In this document: positions 5,440 to 25,262 of the stretch, piece after piece
Position numbering within the stretch: the first letter of the stretch is position 1
Layout of the letters: the number at the start of each line of letters is the position of its first letter
DNA from: Phoenicibacter congonensis
GTDB lineage: Bacteria; Actinomycetota; Coriobacteriia; Coriobacteriales; Eggerthellaceae
DNA length: 64,000 bases
NCBI RefSeq assembly: GCF_900169485.1
Contig: NZ_LT821227.1
Span: forward strand, 992,001 to 1,056,000
Direction of reading: 5' to 3'
The notes under the pieces: generated by a model
Databases searched by the model: none
What the model saw: the letters and a program-made list of their open reading frames with translations, nothing else
Told to the model about the DNA's origin: nothing
Translations under genes and position numbers: made by a program

Positions 5440-5905
5440 TGTTCTTACATTGGTGTCAGACATGAATACAAATGGAATAATCCTTGCGTATGCACACTTT
5501 TACAAAGGTGCCAGGGCACAATGAAAACGCTATTTACAATGGTGCCAGGCTTCAGGTTTGAGTAATAAATTTGAGATCTTAACGGTTTGGTTTCAATGGT
5601 ATCAGCCCAAATTTTAACAGCGCACGAATTTACGAATAAGCCCTGCGTATGCACACTTTTACAAAGGTGCCAGGGCAAAATGAAAACGCTATTTACAATG
5701 GTGCCAGGCTTCAGGTTTGAGTAATAAATTTAAGATCTTAACGGTTTGGTTTCAATGGTGCCAGCCCAAATTTTAACAGCGCACGAATTTACGAATAAGC
5801 CCTGCGTATGCACACTTTTACAAAGGTGCCAGGGCAAAATGAAAACGCTATTTACAATGGAGCCAGACATAAATTGAAATCCCTTGAACATGGTGTCTGG
5901 CTTAA
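5440..5905 (+). repeat. Repeat cluster 4 with a 159-bp tandem composite unit
   Basis: This is the content of the gap 5324-5963. One CATGAAT-type copy at about 5446-5466 is the last of that subtype; from here on the GGCAAAAT/GGCTT subtype takes over. A 159-bp unit, starting at GCGTATGCACAC (5486, 5645, 5804), is repeated in direct orientation with very few changes. Each full unit holds three different GGTGCCAG cores: one followed by GGCAAAA, one by GCTTCAG and one by CCCAAATTTT. The third unit is cut after its second core. Confidence 0.88.
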
Positions 5906-6695: not shown

Positions 6696-7126
6696 AAAAA
6701 CAAGACGTTTAAAATTAGCTTTGCTCTGTTGATTTCGCATGTTCATCAATTCGGGCTTTCACGTCTTTGAATGCTTTCAACTGTGAGCATTTGTGAATCC
6801 TTTTTTGTCACCATAACTTCCAAATTGCTTTTACCTGTTTTAACGGGTGAATTTATTTACGCTTAAAAGAGAGTTCAACTCAACATTCTAATAGGAAATA
6901 TTCATTATCCATTTACAATGGTCCCAGGGCAAAATGTAAATGCGATTTACAATGGTGCCAGGCTTCAGTTTTTAGCAATAAATTTGAGATCTCGTCGGTC
7001 TGGCCTTAAAAGTGTCACCCTAATTTCAACAGAGCATGAATTTGCGAAGAACCCCTGTGTATGTACACTTTTACAAGGGTGCCAGGGCAAAATGTAAATG
7101 CGATTTACAATGGTGCCAGCCCTTAG
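6696..7126. repeat. Gap with repeat cluster 5 and a possible gene remnant
   Basis: Between 6911 and 7124 lies a diverged copy of the cluster 4 unit: two doublets of GGTGCCAG cores separated by sequence also found around 5560-5640. The doublet spacer (TGTAAAT-GCG-ATTTACA) is itself a hairpin. Upstream (6715-6830), the minus strand reads ...KDVKARIDEHAKSTEQS and then stops, which looks like the tail of a lost gene but matches nothing I recognise. Confidence 0.7.
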
Positions 7127-8302
7127 TTATACGGGCAATTCAACCGCAATTGTTGTGCCGTTCTCATCACTTTCTTTTACAAAAACACGGCCACCGTGAA
7201 GGCTCACTATCTCCCAGACAAGAGACATCCCCAGACCAACACCACCATTTTCTCGGCTGCGCGATTTATCAACACGAAAGAAGGGCTGAAAGATGCTTCT
7301 CTGAAATTCTTTTGGGATGCCGAATCCGCAGTCTTCAACCTCAATTGTCAATCTCTGATCACTTTTTTTATATTCGCGCATTGAGTCAGTTTTCGCTTTA
7401 AGGGTTTCATCCTCAATTACTCTTACAAAAACTCCTCCATTTGGTCTATTAAACTTGATAGCATTTTCGCAAAGGTTGTAAATCATGCGGTAGATTAGAG
7501 TATCGCTTCCTTTAATTTCTGCATCGCCTTCGAGGCTAAAGGCTATGTCCTTTTTGCTTGCCTCAGGGGATAAATCGGCAAAAATCTCTTCCACTAACGG
7601 GGCAATTTGCACCACATCATTTCGCGCTACGCTCTGCATGCTGCTCATGTCAAGCAAAGTTTTTATCGTTTGCGTCAGTCGTTCAGTTTGTTCTTTGATT
7701 TGTGTTGTAAATTCACGATATTCTTTCGGAATATCTGGATGTTCCGCCTCAAACAACTCAACTTGAGCCTGCATCAGTGCAACTGGCGTGCGAAGCTCAT
7801 GAGCCGCATTTCCCGTAAATTGTTTTTGAGCGGAAAATGCATTATTCAGGCGTTCGAGCATCGCATTGAATGACTGTCCAAGTTGTCGAAATTCAGGAAC
7901 AGTGTTTTCGTTAATTCTAATTTCGGCGATGTTGTGAAGTTGCACAGTTTCAACTTGATTTGTGAATTTGCGAAGTGGACGAAGCGCACGTCCGCTCACG
8001 AACCATGCAAGGATCCCGCTCACAATCGTAACAATTGCGGTAATATACCAGTTAGTCATGCAAAACTCTTCTTGGGCATTGCTAATTACAATTGAAAGGC
8101 CTCTTTTGTCACTAATTGTGTTGGGATTAAAAAAGCCTGGGCTATCACTTGCAATGGGTGCTGAATCAATAACAGAATTGCCAATTGCGTCCATGTAGTG
8201 AATGCCCGAAGAGCATAACAGCACTTTCATCAAGACGCAAGTAATTCCGATTAGCAATGTTGTCATTATCGTTATTCGCCATTGCAGAGAAAGTTTGTTC
8301 AC
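7127..8302 (-). CDS. Sensor histidine kinase (HAMP, two TM)
   Basis: A 391-residue OmpR-type sensor kinase. A first membrane helix follows the start, a short extracytoplasmic loop of about 75 residues lies between the helices, and a second helix (WYITAIVTIVSGILAWFV) leads into a HAMP linker. The H box is AAHELRTPVALM, the N box NLCENAIKFN, and the G boxes include DCGFGIP and GVGLGMSLV, so it should be active. The GTG at 8302, with GAAGGA upstream, is taken as the start; the open frame extends 51 codons further, but only by reading through dispersed repeats. Three inverted repeat copies separate it from the response regulator. The neighbouring redox genes suggest it senses oxidative or thiol stress. 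Confidence 0.9.
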   Translation of the reverse strand: MNKLSLQWRITIMTTLLIGITCVLMKVLLCSSGIHYMDAIGNSVIDSAPIASDSPGFFNPNTISDKRGLSIVISNAQEEFCMTNWYITAIVTIVSGILAWFVSGRALRPLRKFTNQVETVQLHNIAEIRINENTVPEFRQLGQSFNAMLERLNNAFSAQKQFTGNAAHELRTPVALMQAQVELFEAEHPDIPKEYREFTTQIKEQTERLTQTIKTLLDMSSMQSVARNDVVQIAPLVEEIFADLSPEASKKDIAFSLEGDAEIKGSDTLIYRMIYNLCENAIKFNRPNGGVFVRVIEDETLKAKTDSMREYKKSDQRLTIEVEDCGFGIPKEFQRSIFQPFFRVDKSRSRENGGVGLGMSLVWEIVSLHGGRVFVKESDENGTTIAVELPV

Positions 8303-8464: not shown

Positions 8465-9139
8465 TCAGAACTTTTCTTCTATAACATAGCCTTCGCCAAT
8501 GCGATTTTTAATCGGGTCATGCTCTAACGTCGCACGCAATTTTTTCCGCAATGCTGAAATGTGCACTCTGATCGAATTACTGAAAGCGTCAACGCTATTG
8601 TCCCAAACATGTTCTATCAGTTCTTCTTGGCTGACGGGACGACCTTGGTGAGCCATGAGATACTCCAAAATCCCTGTCTCTTTTCGCGTGAGTGAAAGCT
8701 CAATTCCATTAGCAATAGCCTTGCGAGTGCGCGTGTCGAATTCAACTTCACCGCAGGTTAACAGCACATCTTTTTGAGTAAATTGACGCAAAGTGAGACT
8801 GCGAATTCTCGCTTCCAGCTCTGCTAGATGGAATGGCTTTGACAAATAGTCATTTGCCCCTGAATCCAAGCCCTCGACTTTGTCAGCGACTTCACTTCTC
8901 GCGGAGAGGATGAGAACTTTTGTTTCTTTGTCAAAACTCCGCAACCTTCGAAGAACACTAATTCCATCGATTTTTGGCAAGTTCAAATCAAGAACAACAA
9001 GATCAAAAGTTTCATTTCGCAGCATATCTAGCGCACGCTCACCATCATGGCAAAAGTCCACACTATAAGCTTTTCTTCGCAGGCTTCGCACAATTGTATC
9101 GCATAACACTCGCTCGTCTTCTACTACTAAAAGGTGCAC
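8465..9139 (-). CDS. OmpR-family response regulator
   Basis: A 224-residue regulator. The receiver domain has the acidic pair in VVEDE, the phospho-acceptor aspartate in VVLDLNLP and the conserved lysine in LSKPF. It is followed by a winged-helix DNA-binding domain (LTRKETGILEYLMAHQGRPVSQEEL). The GTG at 9139 is chosen because AAAGGAG lies just upstream and the protein then begins directly with the first beta-strand. The longer frame to 9205 would add 22 residues translated from a repeat. It is the first gene of the pair with the kinase. Expected targets are the divergently placed redox-repair genes at 9494-13447, which is an inference from position. Confidence 0.9.
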   Translation of the reverse strand: MHLLVVEDERVLCDTIVRSLRRKAYSVDFCHDGERALDMLRNETFDLVVLDLNLPKIDGISVLRRLRSFDKETKVLILSARSEVADKVEGLDSGANDYLSKPFHLAELEARIRSLTLRQFTQKDVLLTCGEVEFDTRTRKAIANGIELSLTRKETGILEYLMAHQGRPVSQEELIEHVWDNSVDAFSNSIRVHISALRKKLRATLEHDPIKNRIGEGYVIEEKF

Positions 9140-9493
9140 ATTTCTCCTTTTCTCACACTTATTTACTACTTTTACAAAGGTGCCAGGGCAAAATGTAAAC
9201 GACATTTACAATGGTGCCAGGGTTCACGTTTTAATCCAAATTCATAAGAGGCTTTTTTAAGCTTCTTTTTATCTTTCTAACAGCAATATTTTCTACCTAA
9301 CACCAGCACTGGTGCCTTTTAACAAAGGTGCCAGGGCAAAATGTAAATGGCATTTACAAAGGTGCCAGGCTTGAATTTTTCTTCTTTAATTATTCCAAAC
9401 AAGCATAAAGTTCGTGTTAATTTTCGGCTCTTAACGGGGACTTTATTCCGCGCTTGATAAAGTGTTCGCAAGACAGCGGAAAGGAGTGTGAGT
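9140..9493 (+). repeat. Repeat cluster 7 between divergent regulator and redox genes
   Basis: This 354-bp divergent intergenic region should contain both promoters. It holds two doublets. In the first, TTTACA (9171-9176), a 17-bp core and TGTAAA (9194-9199) make a complete element, and the next TTTACA (9205-9210) starts the second monomer. The second doublet is at about 9318-9372. No other operator-like dyad stands out. Confidence 0.85.
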
Positions 9494-9640
9494 TTGAGTC
9501 ATAAAGTCAAAACTACCGTACAAGTGTTGATGCTGGCAGCGGCAATCGCCATGCTGCTAGCCGGAAGTTTGCAAGGTGAAGTGCAGGTTGTTTTAAGTAA
9601 AGCCATCAAATTGTGTTTGGAGTGTGTAGGAATTGGATAG
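9494..9640 (+). CDS. CD1871A-like small CXXC membrane protein
   Basis: A 48-residue peptide: a short basic start, one hydrophobic helix (VLMLAAAIAMLLAGSL) and a C-terminal KLCLECVGIG tail with a CXXC motif. Small proteins of this kind, named after Clostridioides CD1871A, occur beside 4Fe-4S membrane proteins and methionine sulfoxide reductases. TTG 9494 fits the AAGGAG at 9481-9486; a GTG at 9488 is too close to it. The gene overlaps the NapH-like gene by 8 bp, implying translational coupling. The CXXC probably relays electrons across or at the membrane surface. This role is inferred. Confidence 0.8.
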   Translation: MSHKVKTTVQVLMLAAAIAMLLAGSLQGEVQVVLSKAIKLCLECVGIG

Positions 9641-10586
9641 TAAAAAAACTACCGTTTCGAAGTTATTAAGCCGAAGGCGCGGGTGGGTTCAAGCAGGGGC
9701 CACTGTTGTGACCAACATCCATTTGCCGAATTTCATCGACGGCAGCCTCTACAAAGGGGCAGGGAAGTCGGTGTGCGTTCCTGGCTTGAACTGCTATTCT
9801 TGCCCCGCTGCAACGGGCGCTTGTCCGATTGGGGCGTTTCAGTCGGTGGTTGGTAATTCCAAATTCAGCTTTTCCTACTACGTTACTGGAACACTTATTC
9901 TGCTTGGTGTGCTACTTGGGCGATTTATCTGCGGTTTCCTTTGTCCTTTCGGGTGGTTTCAAGACCTACTTCATAAAATTCCCTCAAAGAAGATCTCAAC
10001 GACAAAACTGAAACCATTACGTCTCCTAAAATATGCAGTTCTCCTATTCTCGGTTGTATTGCTGCCGGCTCTACTTGTAAACGACGTTGGCTTAGGCGAG
10101 CCTATCTTCTGTAAATACATATGCCCTCAAGGTGTATTGGAAGGTGCCATTCCGCTGTCAATTGTAGATTCGGGAATTCGCGCAACACTTGGTTTGTTGT
10201 TTGAGTGGAAATTTACGATTCTCGTTGTTTTAATTTTGCTTAGTGTTTTTATTTACCGTCCTTTTTGTAAATGGATTTGCCCGCTTGGGGCAATATATGG
10301 GCTCATGAATCGCGTTTCTATGACCCAAATGAATGTAGATAAAAACAAATGCGTTTCTTGCGGAAAATGTGCCAGAGCTTGCAAAATGGACGTTGATGTT
10401 ACCAAGACGCCGAATCATTTTGAGTGCATTAGATGCGGAATGTGCGTGACGGCATGCCCAACTGATGCTGTGAGCATCCGCTTCGGCTTAGGCGACGCAA
10501 AAACACCTTCGACAAAGGTGCCAGGGCAAAAAATAAAACATAAAAACGCTATTGACAATGCTGTCGACAAAGGTGCCAGGGCATAG
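9633..10586 (+). CDS. NapH-like 4Fe-4S membrane polyferredoxin
   Basis: A 317-residue membrane Fe-S protein of the NapH/CcoG-like type. It has an early CVPGLNCYSCP cluster (Cys48, 54 and 57), several membrane helices, two FICGFLCPFG / WICPLGA type CxxxCP motifs, an ICPQG motif, and a C-terminal ferredoxin with CVSCGKCARACK and CIRCGMCVTACP for two 4Fe-4S clusters. It probably moves electrons from the cytoplasm or quinol pool to extracytoplasmic thiol partners. Start TTG 9633 is coupled to the CXXC peptide. Its last 24 or so residues (from STKVPGQK) are translated from dispersed repeats, so the natural C-terminus has been replaced or extended. Confidence 0.88.
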   Translation: MDSKKTTVSKLLSRRRGWVQAGATVVTNIHLPNFIDGSLYKGAGKSVCVPGLNCYSCPAATGACPIGAFQSVVGNSKFSFSYYVTGTLILLGVLLGRFICGFLCPFGWFQDLLHKIPSKKISTTKLKPLRLLKYAVLLFSVVLLPALLVNDVGLGEPIFCKYICPQGVLEGAIPLSIVDSGIRATLGLLFEWKFTILVVLILLSVFIYRPFCKWICPLGAIYGLMNRVSMTQMNVDKNKCVSCGKCARACKMDVDVTKTPNHFECIRCGMCVTACPTDAVSIRFGLGDAKTPSTKVPGQKIKHKNAIDNAVDKGARA

Positions 10587-10826
10587 TAAAAATCGCAGGT
10601 AGAAGGGCTTTTTACAAAGGTGCCAGGCTTTAATTTAGACGTAATGAAACTTCAGTCTTTTTAATCGGTTCTAGACTTGCATAAAAGTTCTTTGCAATGC
10701 TGTCAATTTACAAAGGTGCCAGGGCAAAAAATAAGCAATAAAGAAACGCTGTCGACAAAAGTACCAGGGCATAGTAAAAACCGCAGGAAGAAGACCTCTT
10801 TATAAAGGTGACAGGGCAAAATTTTA
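10505..10826 (+). repeat. Repeat cluster 8 running from gene end to next gene
   Basis: Cores lie near 10515, 10568, 10619, 10716, 10766 and 10806, spaced about 45-100 bp. The first two are inside the coding end of the NapH-like gene. Two blocks (10505-10590 and 10705-10775) are near copies of each other, sharing 'CTGTCGACAAAGGTGCC'-like text, so this is a local duplication. Confidence 0.87.
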
Positions 10827-10846: not shown

Positions 10847-11770
10847 ATGAAAATTATGAACAAGCTATCAATCGGACTTGCAGCATTGTTTGCTGCAGTT
10901 CTTCTAATAACTCTTTCCGCGTGTGGAAAGCAGCAGGAGAAAATGGGGGGCTCGTCCATGGATTCCATGAGCTATGAAGAAGCTGCAAAAATGTACGATG
11001 AACTAACTGAAGAAGAGAACCAGATTCTGACCGAAAACAAGGAGCTTTGGGAAAAAGTCTTCATGGCTGGCACCAAAGACATGGCCAAGATTCAGGAGAC
11101 TAAAAATTACGGCGATTTTCTGCTGAACACAATAGAAGCTGCGAAAGATGAATTTAGTGACGATGAATACCAAATGATTACTGGTGAAGCGGAAAAAATT
11201 AAGGAAATTGAGAACAAACTAATCATGCTGACCGAAAAGTTTCCTGAGCTTGCAAAAAGAAAAACGGATGGAGGAACGAGTGTTCCCGCCGAAAATGGTG
11301 AAGTGAAGAAATTCCCAACTTTTGAAGGCAAAGATCTTGATGGAAATCAAGTAAAAAGCGACGAACTTTTTGGTAATAGTAAGGTTTCAGTCATGAATTT
11401 TTGGTTTACCACATGCAACCCTTGTGTGCGTGAACTGCCTGACCTAGAGAGTCTCAATGGTGAACTTAAGTCAAAAGGAGGCCAAGTCGTCGGAGTTAAT
11501 TCATTCACTTTAGATGGAGATCAGCAGGCAATTAACGAAGCTAAGGACGTATTAAACAAGAAGGACGTGACATACAAGAACGTCTATTTTGATAGCAACA
11601 GTGAGGCAGGTAAGTTCACTAACAAGATTAATGGTTTTCCAACAACAATTGTGGTTGACAGGAACGGAAATATTGTTGGAGACCCAATCGTGGGACCAAT
11701 TACGGAACAAAAACAGAAAGACGCGTTAATGAAACTGGTTGATCAAGCTATAGCAAATGACAAAATGTAG
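10847..11770 (+). CDS. TlpA-type thioredoxin-fold lipoprotein
   Basis: A 307-residue lipoprotein. The signal peptide ends in LSAC. An acidic helical region of about 130 residues follows, then a thioredoxin/TlpA domain with FWFTTCNPCVRELPDLESL, whose redox pair is Cys190 and Cys193, and the cis-proline region NGFPTTIVVD. It resembles the Etrx-type extracellular thioredoxins that reduce surface MsrAB in Gram-positives. ATG 10847 is preferred to an upstream frame that begins inside a repeat. Lying between the polyferredoxin and MsrAB genes, it most likely passes electrons to MsrAB; that is inference from context. Confidence 0.87.
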   Translation: MKIMNKLSIGLAALFAAVLLITLSACGKQQEKMGGSSMDSMSYEEAAKMYDELTEEENQILTENKELWEKVFMAGTKDMAKIQETKNYGDFLLNTIEAAKDEFSDDEYQMITGEAEKIKEIENKLIMLTEKFPELAKRKTDGGTSVPAENGEVKKFPTFEGKDLDGNQVKSDELFGNSKVSVMNFWFTTCNPCVRELPDLESLNGELKSKGGQVVGVNSFTLDGDQQAINEAKDVLNKKDVTYKNVYFDSNSEAGKFTNKINGFPTTIVVDRNGNIVGDPIVGPITEQKQKDALMKLVDQAIANDKM

Positions 11771-11785
11771 CTGGATGAATGACTG

Positions 11786-11965
11786 TTTTTAAAGGTGCCA
11801 GGCTTGAGTTTGAATCGAATTTAATATCGATTAACTCCTTACGAAGAAGATATTTACAAAGGTGCCAGGGCAAAATGAAAATGAGAAAAAAGCAGATCAA
11901 ACCTATATTTACAATGGTGCCAGGGCAAAATTACAGTTTTAAATCATTAGATTCCCTGGCGCCTG
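11786..11965 (+). repeat. Repeat cluster 9
   Basis: Three direct cores near 11793, 11858 and 11915 (GGCTT, GGCAAAAT and GGCAAAAT types) and a degenerate inverted match at about 11953 lie between the TlpA gene and the next small gene. Confidence 0.85.
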
Positions 11966-12035
11966 TCCTAACATCGATTTGATAATCGAAAGATTAGTAC
12001 CTACACAAGTTTTAACTAGCGAAAGGAGCAAAACT

Positions 12036-12194
12036 ATGAGTTTGAAAATATTGGCAATTGCATTTGCAGTCTTGCTTCTTCTTTGTACAGTGGCATTTCT
12101 TACTTACGAATTATCTAGTCGCGTATCCTTGGGTGGCGACACTTCTCCTACCATTAAACAGGCTGAAGAGAAAAACCCCCTCCTTGGCTGTTGA
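12036..12194 (+). CDS. Small single-pass membrane protein
   Basis: A 52-residue peptide with a single strongly hydrophobic helix (residues 4-24, LKILAIAFAVLLLLCTVAFL) and a soluble tail ending in ...KNPLLGC. The start ATG 12036 has AAAGGAG seven bases upstream, which is among the better ribosome binding sites of the region and argues that the peptide is made. I recognise no family. It sits inside the presumed redox set, and the final cysteine might be functional, but one cysteine is weak evidence. Confidence 0.6.
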   Translation: MSLKILAIAFAVLLLLCTVAFLTYELSSRVSLGGDTSPTIKQAEEKNPLLGC

Positions 12195-12244
12195 ATTTTA
12201 AAAACTAAAAGAGGATGAGTTCATCCTCGTTAGATTAAATGCAA

Positions 12245-12388
12245 GCGATTTACAATGGTGCCAGGGCAAATTGAAAGGACAAATAGAAAATAAGAAAAAT
12301 TAGTTCAAACCTATATTTACAATGGTGCCAGGGGAAACTAAAGGACAAATAATCGTAGTTACTGCCACATTCCAAATGGTGCCAGGCT
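12245..12388 (+). repeat. Repeat cluster 10
   Basis: Three direct cores near 12258, 12326 and 12378 (two GGCAAA/GGGAAA and one GGCTTCAG) lie in the 278-bp gap before msrAB. The first two are in near-duplicate blocks of about 68 bp. Confidence 0.85.
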
Positions 12389-12472
12389 TCAGTAAATCAG
12401 CTCCAGTAAATCGCATTGTCAGCCTGTCTGGTTAATAGTTAAAAATCTACTAACAGGAAGGAGGAGAGAAAA

Positions 12473-13447
12473 GTGAAACTTAAACACATTCCAATTCTGC
12501 TCTCCTTGGGTTTTCTTTTAGGTGGGTGTTCGTTCGTTCAGTCTAATGATTGTTTGAGTGAAACTTTAGGTGATGCTGATTTTAATAGCAAAACAACAGA
12601 GGAGGCAAGTGAGGAAAAGATGAAGACTCCAGAATCAACGAATGAAATATATTTAGCAGGGGGATGCTTTTGGGGCATGGAGCTTTTGATGGAGTCGATT
12701 CCGGGCGTAGTTGATGCGCAAAGTGGCTACGCGAATGGGAACAGTGCCGAGGCTGCCAACTATAAGTCAGTATGTAGTGGGGATACGGGTTTTCGCGAAA
12801 CAGTGCGAGTAAAATATGATCCAGGTCAGGTGTCTCTTGATGGAATTTTGCTTGCCTATTTTTATGTCATTGACCCAACGGTCGAAAACAGACAAGGAAA
12901 TGATCGTGGTTCGCAATATCAAACTGGCATATACTACGTTGACGATGAGTCGAAGGAAACCGTCGAGCGCATCGCCGAAATCGAACGCTGGCGCCATGAC
13001 AAATTTGTAGTTGAGATTTGCCCATTAAAGAATTACTATCCAGCTGAGGATTATCATCAAGACTATTTAAAGAAAAACCCTCGTGGTTACTGCCACATTC
13101 CACGTAAGGAAATTGAGCTGTTTTCAAAGCTGAAAATTGATCCAGGAGACTATCAAAAACCAGCTGAGGAGTCCATTCGAGAAAAGCTTACGAATGAACA
13201 GTATCGTGTGACGCAAAACGGCGGAACTGAGACAGCATTTAAGAATGCTTTTTGGAACCAGTTTGAGCAAGGGATTTATGTTGATGTGGTGACAGGCGAA
13301 CCCTTATTCTCATCTACAGACAAATTCCACAGCGGTTGCGGATGGCCTGCTTTTTCAAAACCAATTGAGACTCCGGCTGTTGTCGAAAAAGAGGATCTTA
13401 GGAGTTCCCTGTGGCGGTTAGTATACAGTGGTTCGATTATCCCGTAA
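12473..13447 (+). CDS. msrAB: Surface MsrA-MsrB lipoprotein with truncated MsrB half
   Basis: Peptide methionine sulfoxide reductase, exported and lipid-anchored (lipobox LLGGC, Cys19). The MsrA domain spans about residues 59-215, with catalytic Cys65 in GGCFWG. The MsrB domain starts at about residue 232 (NEQYRVTQNGGTETAF) and keeps the GCGWPAF motif. It then departs from the family after about residue 308 (EDLRSSLWRLVY) and stops, so the region with the catalytic RYC-type cysteine is missing. S-form sulfoxide repair by MsrA should survive, but R-form repair by MsrB is predicted lost. Start GTG 12473 follows GGAAGGAGG. The break lies at the edge of an imported element. It belongs with the TlpA and polyferredoxin genes. 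Confidence 0.88.
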   Translation: MKLKHIPILLSLGFLLGGCSFVQSNDCLSETLGDADFNSKTTEEASEEKMKTPESTNEIYLAGGCFWGMELLMESIPGVVDAQSGYANGNSAEAANYKSVCSGDTGFRETVRVKYDPGQVSLDGILLAYFYVIDPTVENRQGNDRGSQYQTGIYYVDDESKETVERIAEIERWRHDKFVVEICPLKNYYPAEDYHQDYLKKNPRGYCHIPRKEIELFSKLKIDPGDYQKPAEESIREKLTNEQYRVTQNGGTETAFKNAFWNQFEQGIYVDVVTGEPLFSSTDKFHSGCGWPAFSKPIETPAVVEKEDLRSSLWRLVYSGSIIP

Positions 13448-18829: not shown

Positions 18830-19165
18830 CTATGGAGATTGGGGTCGTGGGTGATACAGAGAGGTGTGTTGTTTTTGAGCGAGATCAAGACGCGATTCTC
18901 CAGGTTTTTGATTTGCACCAGCTGTGACTACGGCCACAAGGGCATCTGCGGCGTCATCGTAGTTTCCGCTGTAAATACGCACCGGTCGAGCGAAAGGAAT
19001 TCCGTGCGCAATGTCAAGTGCTTCACCTTCTGCTCGTTCTTTATCAACATCAACCATTACTATTTCGTTGAATAATCCGCTCAGCATCAACGTGTATGCG
19101 GCTGTGGAACCAACAAAACCGCAGCCGATGATTGCAACTTTTCGTCCATTAGCAATGTTTCGCAT
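18830..19165 (-). pseudogene. ldh: N-terminal fragment of L-lactate dehydrogenase
   Basis: The first 98 residues match L-lactate dehydrogenase: the Rossmann motif VAIIGCGFVGS, the acidic residue in MVDVDKERAEGEALD, and TAGANQKPGESRLDLAQK. Homology stops at about 18871, and the frame continues into unrelated sequence (QHTSLYHPRP) with an early stop. The catalytic histidine and substrate loop are lost, so it cannot be active. The start ATG 19165 has AGGAGG upstream, so a short peptide may still be made. The break faces the imported segment, and the missing two thirds are not in this window. Confidence 0.88.
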
Positions 19166-19279
19166 AATTTCCTCCTGTTGAATCACTTTTTATTTCCTAG
19201 GACGATTATATTTTTCTCGCTGGCAACCACTCTGAGACTTGAAATTCTTAACACAAATTGAACAATCGCCGGCATTTAT

Positions 19280-20349: not shown

Positions 20350-20402
20350 CATTTAAAAAGGTGACAGGGCAAAAGAAAAGCAATTACAATGGTGCCAGGC
20401 AT
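20350..20402 (+). repeat. Repeat cluster 12 upstream of the RAYT gene
   Basis: Two direct copies about 30 bp apart: AAAAAGGTGACAGGGCAAAA at 20357-20376 and TTACAATGGTGCCAGGCATC at 20385-20404. They form the doublet nearest to the transposase gene, 175 bp upstream of its start. Confidence 0.82.
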
Positions 20403-20580
20403 CACTGTTTATATATTTTTTATTCAGTTTTCATTCATCGTTATCTTCAATTTAAGTTCATGTGTTTAATTACACGTTCAACACTGGTTTATTCACTTTT
20501 ATTGGGCAGTTCTTTCTTAGTTTTTTGGAATGTTCAAGCTAGCCTTAAAAGAAACAAATAACTTGATTGAAGGGGTAGCC

Positions 20581-21351
20581 ATGGGGAGAAAACCGCGAGC
20601 TGAATCGCCAATGTTAATTCAAAACATAGGGCAAAAAGGTCACAATAGCCAACTTATTTTTTATGATGACGAAGATCGCGAAAAATATGAACAGTCGCTA
20701 CGAAAGGCTTGTAAAGAAAATGGTATTGTACTGCTGGCTTTAGTCTTGATGGGGAATCACATTCATGCATTATTCTTTGGTTCAATTGGAAAATGTGCAG
20801 GCGTTTTCGAGTCAATTGGAGCAAGTTATGTACGATGGTTTAACCGGAAATATGCAAGGACTGGCTCTTTGTGGAATGATCGATATTATTCAAAGCCTGT
20901 AACTAACAAACAGCAACTTTTGGATACTGCTGCCTATATTTTTAACAATCCTGTTAAAGCAGGAATAGTTAAAAATGCTGCGGATTATGCCTGGTCAAGT
21001 TATTCAGAATTGGAAAATCCTTCTGACAACTCGCTTGTATACGAACTGCTAGATGAACTTGTTTCAATCGATTATCTAAAGAAATACATTAAAGATAAAG
21101 CAAATGCAGAAGTGGCGGATTGCGAACGGAAATGCTGCGAAACCATCCCTGACAATCCGGTGTCTGACCAGCACGTTATTGATGAGGTCATTAAGTTCGT
21201 TAAAAAGAAAAATCTGGGCAGAATTCCTCAACTTTCAGAAAATCTTTTAAAGCGTTTGGTAAAAAAATTACTAAAATTTGGCTCAAACATAAATCAGATT
21301 TCACGTGTTACAGGGCTTAGTCGTTACCGAATAGTAATATTGTGCAACTAA
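20581..21351 (+). CDS. REP-associated tyrosine transposase (RAYT, Y1/HUH)
   Basis: A 256-residue protein of the IS200-like Y1 transposase superfamily in its REP-associated form. The HUH metal motif is GNHIHAL (His60, His62). The candidate nucleophile is Tyr83 in ASYVRWFNRKYARTGSLWNDRYYS, a pattern typical of RAYTs. YIFNNPVKAGIV and YAWSSY follow, as in the family. A C-terminal helical extension with ISRVTGLSRYRI looks like a helix-turn-helix. It has no IS ends and no partner gene, which is usual for RAYTs: they act on short palindromic repeats elsewhere in the genome. Here it sits in a dense field of GGTGCCAG repeats. GAAGGGG precedes ATG 20581. Confidence 0.88.
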   Translation: MGRKPRAESPMLIQNIGQKGHNSQLIFYDDEDREKYEQSLRKACKENGIVLLALVLMGNHIHALFFGSIGKCAGVFESIGASYVRWFNRKYARTGSLWNDRYYSKPVTNKQQLLDTAAYIFNNPVKAGIVKNAADYAWSSYSELENPSDNSLVYELLDELVSIDYLKKYIKDKANAEVADCERKCCETIPDNPVSDQHVIDEVIKFVKKKNLGRIPQLSENLLKRLVKKLLKFGSNINQISRVTGLSRYRIVILCN

Positions 21352-22339: not shown

Positions 22340-22735
22340 AGTAACCATTTTACAACGGTGCCGTGTCTACAATGGTGCCAGGGCAAAATTAGAGTTAAGG
22401 GAAATTTATGTAAAGGTGCGGCAAAAGTGCCAGGGCAAATATAAGTTCAGCAAGTTAAAGTGGAGGTAATTTAAATTAGCAATGATAGTTTTGCATAAGG
22501 GCACGGGAAATCAACTAGGCAATTCTTAGCAGACCCAGAATTTTCAATGGTGCCAGGGCAAAATTAAAGTTAAGGGAAATTTATGTAAAGGTGCGACAAA
22601 AGTGCCAGGGCAAATTAAAATGGGGCAAAATAAAGCAAAAGGGAACTCTGTCTAAAGTTACGGCAACGGTGCCAGGCCTGCTTGTGGCCTGCAAGTTACG
22701 ACAACGGTGCCAGGCCTGCTTGTGGCCTGCTTGCG
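22340..22735 (+). repeat. Repeat cluster 14 with a duplicated block
   Basis: This is the main content of the gap 22282-22966. About eight cores occur. A block at 22365-22442 containing two cores is repeated with few changes at 22542-22618, sharing 'TTAAGGGAAATTTATG'. At 22660-22735 a shorter unit, ACAACGGTGCCAGGCCTGC..., occurs twice in tandem, 39 bp apart. This is the last cluster before the housekeeping region. Confidence 0.85.
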
Positions 22736-22849
22736 AAAGTCAGTCTGCGTTGAATGCAGTGTGTGAAAATGTATTATCTAAAAAAGATTTAAAGCCTTTA
22801 TACAGGCAAGATAGATAAAACAGACTTCAAAATAGGGTAGCTATACTAC

Positions 22850-22995
22850 GTTTTGATATTAATGCCTCAAATCTTCTGTTGACCAAGAAGTTAGCTCTGA
22901 TGCGATTTATTATGAACACCAAAAAATATCTGTTGTCCAAGAGGGGAGTTGTGCTTCATGTCGATATTAATACTTCAAATCTTCTGCCGACCAAT
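22850..22995. repeat. Copies of the luxS 3' tail downstream of luxS
   Basis: The last codons of luxS plus a few bases (22958-22995) reappear at about 22850-22890 with several changes. Read on the minus strand, this gives WSTEDLRH and a stop, compared with the gene's WSAEDLKY and stop. A third, shorter match lies at about 22924-22945. The arrangement parallels the dut tail copies at 24031-24814. Confidence 0.75.
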
Positions 22996-23940: not shown

Positions 23941-24030
23941 AGGTCAAAATTTTAATTTCTTTATATCTAAGATGTTGATAATATATGTTATGTAAAGCAG
24001 TATTCTTCAGCAAATATATTTTTAAACAGT

Positions 24031-24814
24031 GTTGGTTTTTAACGACCGCTTGAGCCAAACCCTTGGGTTCCTCTGTTTGATGAGCTCAGTTCATTTGTCA
24101 CTTCAACTTGGATCTCAGATGTTGATAAGGCTTTTGTAATTAAAAGCTGCACAATACGGTCGTCTTTTTGATTAATTAATTGTTTTTACCTGCCGTTTAG
24201 TACTTTTGTAATTTATAGATTCACTACGTTTATAAAACAGTTTTATAGAGATATTTTTTATTTAGGTGGAAAGCTATTAATAGAACTCGTTTCTCTTAGT
24301 GCCTTGCAAGTCACAAAGAATAAATGTTTATATTGTAATTTTGAGTGACTGTTGGTTTTTAACGACCGCTTGAGCCGGCCTTAGAGTTCCTCTGTTTGAT
24401 GCGCTCAGTTCATTTGTCACTTAATCTTGAGTATCAGATGTTGACAAGGCTCTTGTAATTACAAGCTGCACAATACGGTCGTCTTTTTGAATAATTATTT
24501 GTTTCTACCTGCCGTTTAGTACTTTGTTAATTCTTAAATTCGCTACATTTATAAAGTAGTTTTGTAAAGATATTTTTATTTAGGTGGAAAGCTATTAATA
24601 AACTTCAATTCTCTGCAAGCCTTACATGCCCTAATGGATATTGTTTGTATTCTAATTTTGATTGACTGTTGGTTTTTAACGGCCGCTTGATCCAGCCTTA
24701 GATTTCCTCTATTTGATGCTCTCAGTTCATTTGTCACTTCAACTTGAGTATCGGATGTTGACAAGGCTCTTGTGATCAAAAGTTGCGCAATTCTGTCGCC
24801 TTTTTGATTGATTA
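24031..24814 (-). repeat. Three decayed copies of the dut 3' end in tandem
   Basis: The gap 23886-24821 is mostly made of partial copies of the adjacent dut gene. Copies begin at 24031, 24351 and 24668. Each holds about 145 bp corresponding to the last 44 or so codons of dut plus its stop. Copies 1 and 2 are followed by a shared spacer of about 172 bp (with ACCTGCCGTTTAGTAC), giving a 317-320 bp period. Copy 3 is joined directly to the real gene. Copy 1 still reads the dUTPase C-terminus through GFGSSGR without a stop; copies 2 and 3 are damaged. Confidence 0.92.
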
Positions 24815-24821
24815 TAGGTTT

Positions 24822-25262
24822 TTAACGGCCGCTTGAGCCGAACCCTTGAGTTCCTCTGTTTGATGCGCTCAGTTCATTTGTCACTTCAACTTGGATCTCA
24901 GATGTTGACAAGGCTCTTGTGATTAAAAGTTGCGCAATTCTGTCGCCTTTTTGAATGTTAAATGAGTTTTGCTTGTCGGTGTTGATGAGCCCTATCATTA
25001 TTTCGCCGCGGTAATTCGAATCGATTAACCCTGGAGAATTCATTACTGTTACGCCCTTGTTGATCGCATTCCCACTTCTTGGCAACACCAGCCCGCACCA
25101 CCCGTTACTAATCTCAATCGCTACATCTGTGTGGACTAAAGCCCGTTCGCCAGGCTTAATGACCAATTCTTCAGCGGAAAAAATGTCCATAGCAGCATCT
25201 CCCTCGCGAGAATGCTTTGGAATCATTGCATCAGGATTTAGTTTTTTGAACTTTAGAATCAT
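24822..25262 (-). CDS. dut: dUTP diphosphatase
   Basis: A 146-residue trimeric-type dUTPase that hydrolyses dUTP to dUMP and pyrophosphate. The five motifs are visible: GDAAMDIF, PRSGNAINKG, GLIDSNYRGEI (uracil pocket and the catalytic aspartate), GDRIAQLL, and the C-terminal arm RGTQGFGSSGR. An insert (ALSTSEIQVEVTNELSASN) before the arm is the part duplicated downstream. The ATG directly follows the stop of nrdR, so the two are translationally coupled. Pairing with nrdR puts it in a deoxynucleotide supply unit. Confidence 0.95.
   Translation of the reverse strand: MILKFKKLNPDAMIPKHSREGDAAMDIFSAEELVIKPGERALVHTDVAIEISNGWCGLVLPRSGNAINKGVTVMNSPGLIDSNYRGEIMIGLINTDKQNSFNIQKGDRIAQLLITRALSTSEIQVEVTNELSASNRGTQGFGSSGR

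Follow-up and report, generated by a model that had tools for sequence, protein, structure and literature searches.

The dut gene lies on the minus strand of the window (the whole 64-kb stretch of DNA analyzed here), and three partial copies of its own 3′ end follow it in a head-to-tail array. The array is positioned behind the dut stop codon, runs towards lower coordinates on the minus strand like dut itself, and stops some 40 bp short of a predicted dif site. We number the copies in the reading order of the gene, such that copy 1 is the nearest to dut. The features are as follows:

24822-25262, minus strand: dut, coding for an intact dUTP diphosphatase of 146 aa (TIGR00576, E 3.8e-47)
24817-24957, minus strand: the repeated dut segment, comprising the last ~44 codons and a few post-stop bases
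24808-24823, minus strand: gene/copy 1 junction (from alignment), where post-stop AACC-N5-TCAATCAAAA passes into dut coding sequence AAAAAGGCGACAG, with the microhomology TCAAAA
24669-24813, minus strand: copy 1, which abuts dut with a 147-bp period and is frameshifted before the last motif; its left half is gene-like and its right half copy-2-like
24497-24665, minus strand: spacer between copies 1 and 2, with a weak dif-like sequence at 24547-24568 that is not significant once flanks are tested
24352-24492, minus strand: copy 2, with a frameshift and stops
24178-24348, minus strand: spacer between copies 2 and 3, ~81% identical to the other spacer
24039-24179, minus strand: copy 3, the farthest from dut, with its frame open through GFGSSGR
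23971-23998, plus strand: predicted dif (XerC/XerD chromosome dimer resolution) site, GATGTTGATAA-TATATG-TTATGTAAAGC (family profile, 27.5 bits)
22831-22994, minus strand: 3′ end of luxS, in three decayed 54-bp tandem copies

A BLAST self search of the 64-kb window matched dut to copy 1 at 24656-24810 (89.1% nucleotide identity), to copy 2 at 24339-24492 (86.5%), and to copy 3 at 24034-24171 (91.3%), and chance is excluded by the E-values of the three copies, which range from 1e-45 to 1e-52. An earlier note on this DNA had claimed that three partial copies of the last ~44 dut codons lie behind the gene, and these identities of 86-91% confirm it. The array keeps a constant register, with periods of 146-147 bp (gene/copy 1), 317 bp, and 319-320 bp; in the alignment, one codon, at TCAAAAAG, is the starting point of all three copies, each of which extends beyond the stop. 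A spacer of ~172 bp precedes copies 2 and 3, in agreement with the note's report of the same spacer at two of the copies, and copy 1 adjoins the gene without one. The two spacers are ~81% identical to each other, and a search of the 1,447,956-base genome found them confined to the array.

The copies have decayed to different extents. Copies 1 and 2 have a common 1-base deletion before the GFGSSGR motif, and copy 2, the middle one, has stops too; because the frameshift is common to both, we take these two copies to be derived from each other and not to be separate functional ends. Copy 3 differs from the gene by four residues over the shared part (eight silent and four amino-acid-changing bases), and both the Gly and the Ala of its KGDRIAQ motif are altered. 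The note was thus right that one copy is in frame through GFGSSGR and that the two others have decayed; the intact copy, which it called copy 1 by counting from the low coordinate, is copy 3 here and is the farthest from dut in reading order, not the nearest.

Alignment of the copies and the gene, which the note had proposed as a check, reveals an ordered mosaic. At the joint between the gene and copy 1, AACC-N5-TCAATCAAAA is followed by AGGCGACAG; AACC and TCAATCAAAA recur after copy 1, and therefore the breakpoint falls within the TCAAAA common to the post-stop sequence and the gene. There are 14 sites at which the gene and the copies divide two against two; taken in order, six group the gene with copy 1, seven group it with copy 3, and one groups it with copy 1 again. 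The probability of so few runs is 0.004, or 0.048 with linked (neighbouring) changes merged. The gene carries the base of the sister species at 10 of the 14 sites, and therefore it is the copies that carry most of the change. The mosaic suggests conversion in the gene-to-copy direction, and nothing in the comparison of gene, copies, and sister species shows conversion from copy to gene.

The predicted dif site (GATGTTGATAATATATGTTATGTAAAGC in full) fits a XerC/XerD site with two 11-bp arms and a 6-bp centre, and its score with the family-site profile is 27.5 bits, the next best match in the 64 kb reaching 12.0. Its core has a single match in this genome and was found in 98 of 138 family genomes with up to three mismatches allowed; a reversed control pattern gave no match among the genomes listed. 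At other places the genome codes for two candidate XerC/D-like recombinases, full-length matches to the XerD profile that score 297.6 and 285.5 bits, both short of the strict cut-off of 329.6. We predict 23971-23998 to be the dif site, at which XerCD recombination may take place. At ~24 kb the sign of the GC skew flips, and most genes to either side are read in the direction of this point; the array lies between dut and the predicted dif at this turn, and thus at the replication terminus.

The neighborhood of dut and dif is conserved in the family, which we judge from gene content and genome sizes to be Eggerthellaceae-like. Among the 93 testable genomes (those with dut and dif on one contig), dif is within 5 kb of dut in 85, and it is always downstream, from 25 bp to ~4 kb behind the stop. 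Relative to dut, the dif pattern is reversed in this genus (G000 and its sister species, G081), where the two are on opposite strands; nearly all others have both on the same strand. In the sister species, dut is followed by 56 bp and then dif, with no tail copies. We read the dut-dif gaps of 60 family genomes, which range from 25 to 4083 bp, many of them with one small ORF. None of the 60 has copies of its own dut tail in the interval and its flank, where there are only chance matches of 12-17 bases, and none has an element in the interval; 16 further loci, several of them cut by contig ends, yielded only chance-length matches of 22 bases or fewer. Because the intervals in these relatives are without copies, the array is known from this species alone. 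Apparent losses of the dut tail in genomes G127, G129, G021, and G031 trace to contig ends or an assembly gap, not to elements.

We conclude that this is probably a non-functional tandem array, in which an illegitimate (microhomology) event duplicated the 3′ end of dut and recombination or conversion reshaped the result. Tandem duplication was one of two origins suggested in the earlier note, and it is favored by the common start of the copies, the microhomology at the junction, periods that stay in register, and the further tail duplications of this genome, to which we add the mosaic and the absence of copies from relatives. We infer three parts of this account: the order of events, where the spacer came from, and that the array lacks a function. 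A microhomology event would have duplicated the dut 3′ end in the non-coding dut-dif gap, unequal exchange of the 317-320-bp unit (tail and spacer) would have enlarged the array, and recombination or gene conversion among the gene and its copies would have reshaped it. Copies 1 and 2 would be the closest kin, with copy 3 the next; duplication of the unit would have come first, with the left half of copy 1 rewritten by the gene later. Because a tandem duplication over the 3′ end leaves the gene itself whole, the extra tails would be free to decay, and the array is most likely without function.

Comparable tail duplications occur at two other genes. The repeats at the luxS 3′ end are 1 kb away, on the other side of dif from dut, and score 60, where the maximum in 2000 shuffles is 34. 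In a second stretch of the genome (L147), a radical-SAM-like gene (11796-12785; named by eye from its sequence) has a 44-bp copy of its tail 187 bp further on, at 97.7% identity; the repeat region is at 12747-12977, and the repeat consists of the last 39 bases of the gene plus a few more. Together with luxS, this indicates that tail duplication is a recurrent accident in this genome. Intergenic tandem arrays are also numerous in the 464 kb that we sampled for repeats, made up of the 64-kb window and 400 kb in 20 other stretches. The dut array resembles known partial tandem gene duplications, which arise by microhomology or replication slippage, unequal crossing-over, and conversion, in its common start, its head-to-tail order, the short identity at its junction, its mosaic copies, and the decay of redundant ones; it differs from the typical case in that the unit is only the 3′ end of the gene, plus a spacer.

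Some observations count against the tandem duplication. Duplication of the tail with its native downstream sequence is insufficient alone, because copy 3 is not followed by the 172-bp spacer, for which no source was found. The fall of the mosaic test to P 0.048 with linked changes merged also counts against it, as does, weakly given so few changes, the silent excess between the gene and copy 3, which is a little more orderly than pure decay. We sought a source for the spacer in two places. As a decayed dut tail, it has no similarity above that of shuffled sequences, the one marginal exception being copy 3 against one of the spacers (P 0.044). As a decayed dif region, one spacer compared with the dif region of the sister species gave P 0.004 and 0.006 under two scorings and 0.14 under a third, and flanks without the dif core gave 0.04-0.08 at best; we hence do not claim this similarity. 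A structured RNA is another rejected candidate, with no Rfam match up to E 1, and no terminator-like sites are present in the array stretch.

The other origin suggested in the earlier note was serial insertion and loss of integrative elements at the dut 3′ end, each bringing a replacement end, in which case the copies would be displaced ends and the spacers remnants of the elements. Genomic islands and prophages are known to insert into a gene's 3′ end and make the gene whole again, as prophage e14 does at icd, and they leave a displaced gene 3′ end downstream, as at dut. Unlike these, the dut array has no nearby integrase and no att repeats around an element, its spacer is unique, and none of the 60 relatives has a counterpart. 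The single start point of all the copies is what an att core would give, direct repeats resembling AATCAAAA flank the spacers, and, as the main though weak points in favor, the farthest copy is intact and most of its differences from the gene are silent. However, no element is present in the dut-dif intervals of the relatives (5 kb or less in 85 of 93 genomes, with 60 read), and of six matches to the Phage_integrase profile in the genome, the nearest to dut, and with it the nearest tyrosine recombinase gene, is ~81 kb away. Moreover, the spacer is unique in the genome, the copy that adjoins the gene has none, and copies 1 and 2 have a frameshift in common. Viral contigs lend no support to an origin from elements: the tail, the spacer (searched as an exact 19-base pattern), and dif were not found in them, and a dut query returned nothing related to the array, with the single dut relative there being 45% identical to the dut of the array. 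A brief literature search found no report of islands that target dut. The suggestion thus finds no support in the relatives, the viral contigs, the position of the nearest recombinase, or the unique spacer, and we regard it as unlikely.

The earlier note also raised the possibility that the copies convert the C-terminal arm of the gene, which would make the array a reservoir of alternative dUTPase arms. The mosaic does record sequence exchange between the gene and the copies, although it is best read as running from gene to copy, and the gene keeps the state of the sister species at most of the informative sites. A frameshift ahead of the last motif affects two of the three copies, and the third alters the Gly and Ala of KGDRIAQ. 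We consider such a reservoir extremely improbable.

Proximity to dif raises a further explanation, in which the array is the product of recombination at dif: exchange of dif with a similar stretch of the dut tail, through Xer or break repair, would duplicate what lies between. The dut tail matches the XerC side of dif at 15 of 17 positions (16 of 17 in copy 3), and shuffled tails reach no more than 14 in 200 trials; the distance from the dif-like stretch of copy 3 to dif is also 147 bp, exactly the gene/copy 1 period. However, such an event should place the junction inside the dif-like stretch and dif-flank sequence ahead of copy 1, whereas the actual junction is ~50 bp off and dut coding sequence stands at the start of copy 1. 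The dif-like stretch has a spacing of 7-8 bp rather than 6 and scores 2 bits compared to 27 for dif, and 1 of the 60 relatives has an equal match by chance. Because copy 1 has its breakpoint outside the dif-like stretch, we take the 147-bp register of dif and tail to be a coincidence, and formation of the array by dif recombination to be very unlikely. A related idea is that the nearby dut tail serves as the partner when breaks or strand exchange occur at dif, such that the terminus keeps making and rewriting tail copies; this would explain the exact 147-bp register of tail, copy, and dif, and we give it a very slim chance. The dut array shares its location near a dif site, here a predicted one, with elements that use XerCD to insert at dif (IMEX and dif modules); in contrast to those systems, dif here is single and intact, and it is dut tails that are repeated, not dif sites. 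The 17-base stretch resembling the XerC side of dif is at 24112-24128 in copy 3 and at 24895-24911 in the gene tail, with its dif counterpart at 23965-23981.

The tandem duplication, which we prefer, would make the array a set of decaying scraps of a gene's own end with no mobile element involved, and such scraps could be misfiled as island remnants. The array is ordinary overall, and of more use is the dut-dif synteny that emerged along the way: in nearly all testable genomes dif closely follows dut, which provides a simple terminus marker for this bacterial family. A limited literature search found no report of this synteny, and the main text of a survey of predicted dif sites that covers Actinobacteria (PMC3025954) has no match for dut or Eggerthella.

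Other repeats are present in the window and beyond. Dispersed and tandem repeats, several of them interrelated, are at 5475-5866, 6912-7128, 9168-9380, 10512-10815, 11852-12351, 20352-20411, and 22370-22615; they surround a REP-associated tyrosine transposase-like gene (20530-21351), some enter the ends of ORFs, and they are probably REP-type elements. What seems to be a truncated pseudogene, the N-terminal portion of a lactate/malate dehydrogenase-like gene, is at 18830-19186. Large, diverged intergenic tandem arrays lie at 9064-9862, 11431-12048, and 13212-13630 of L153 (genome positions 972-992 kb), where they are partly related among themselves, and at 8468-9119 of another stretch, L158.
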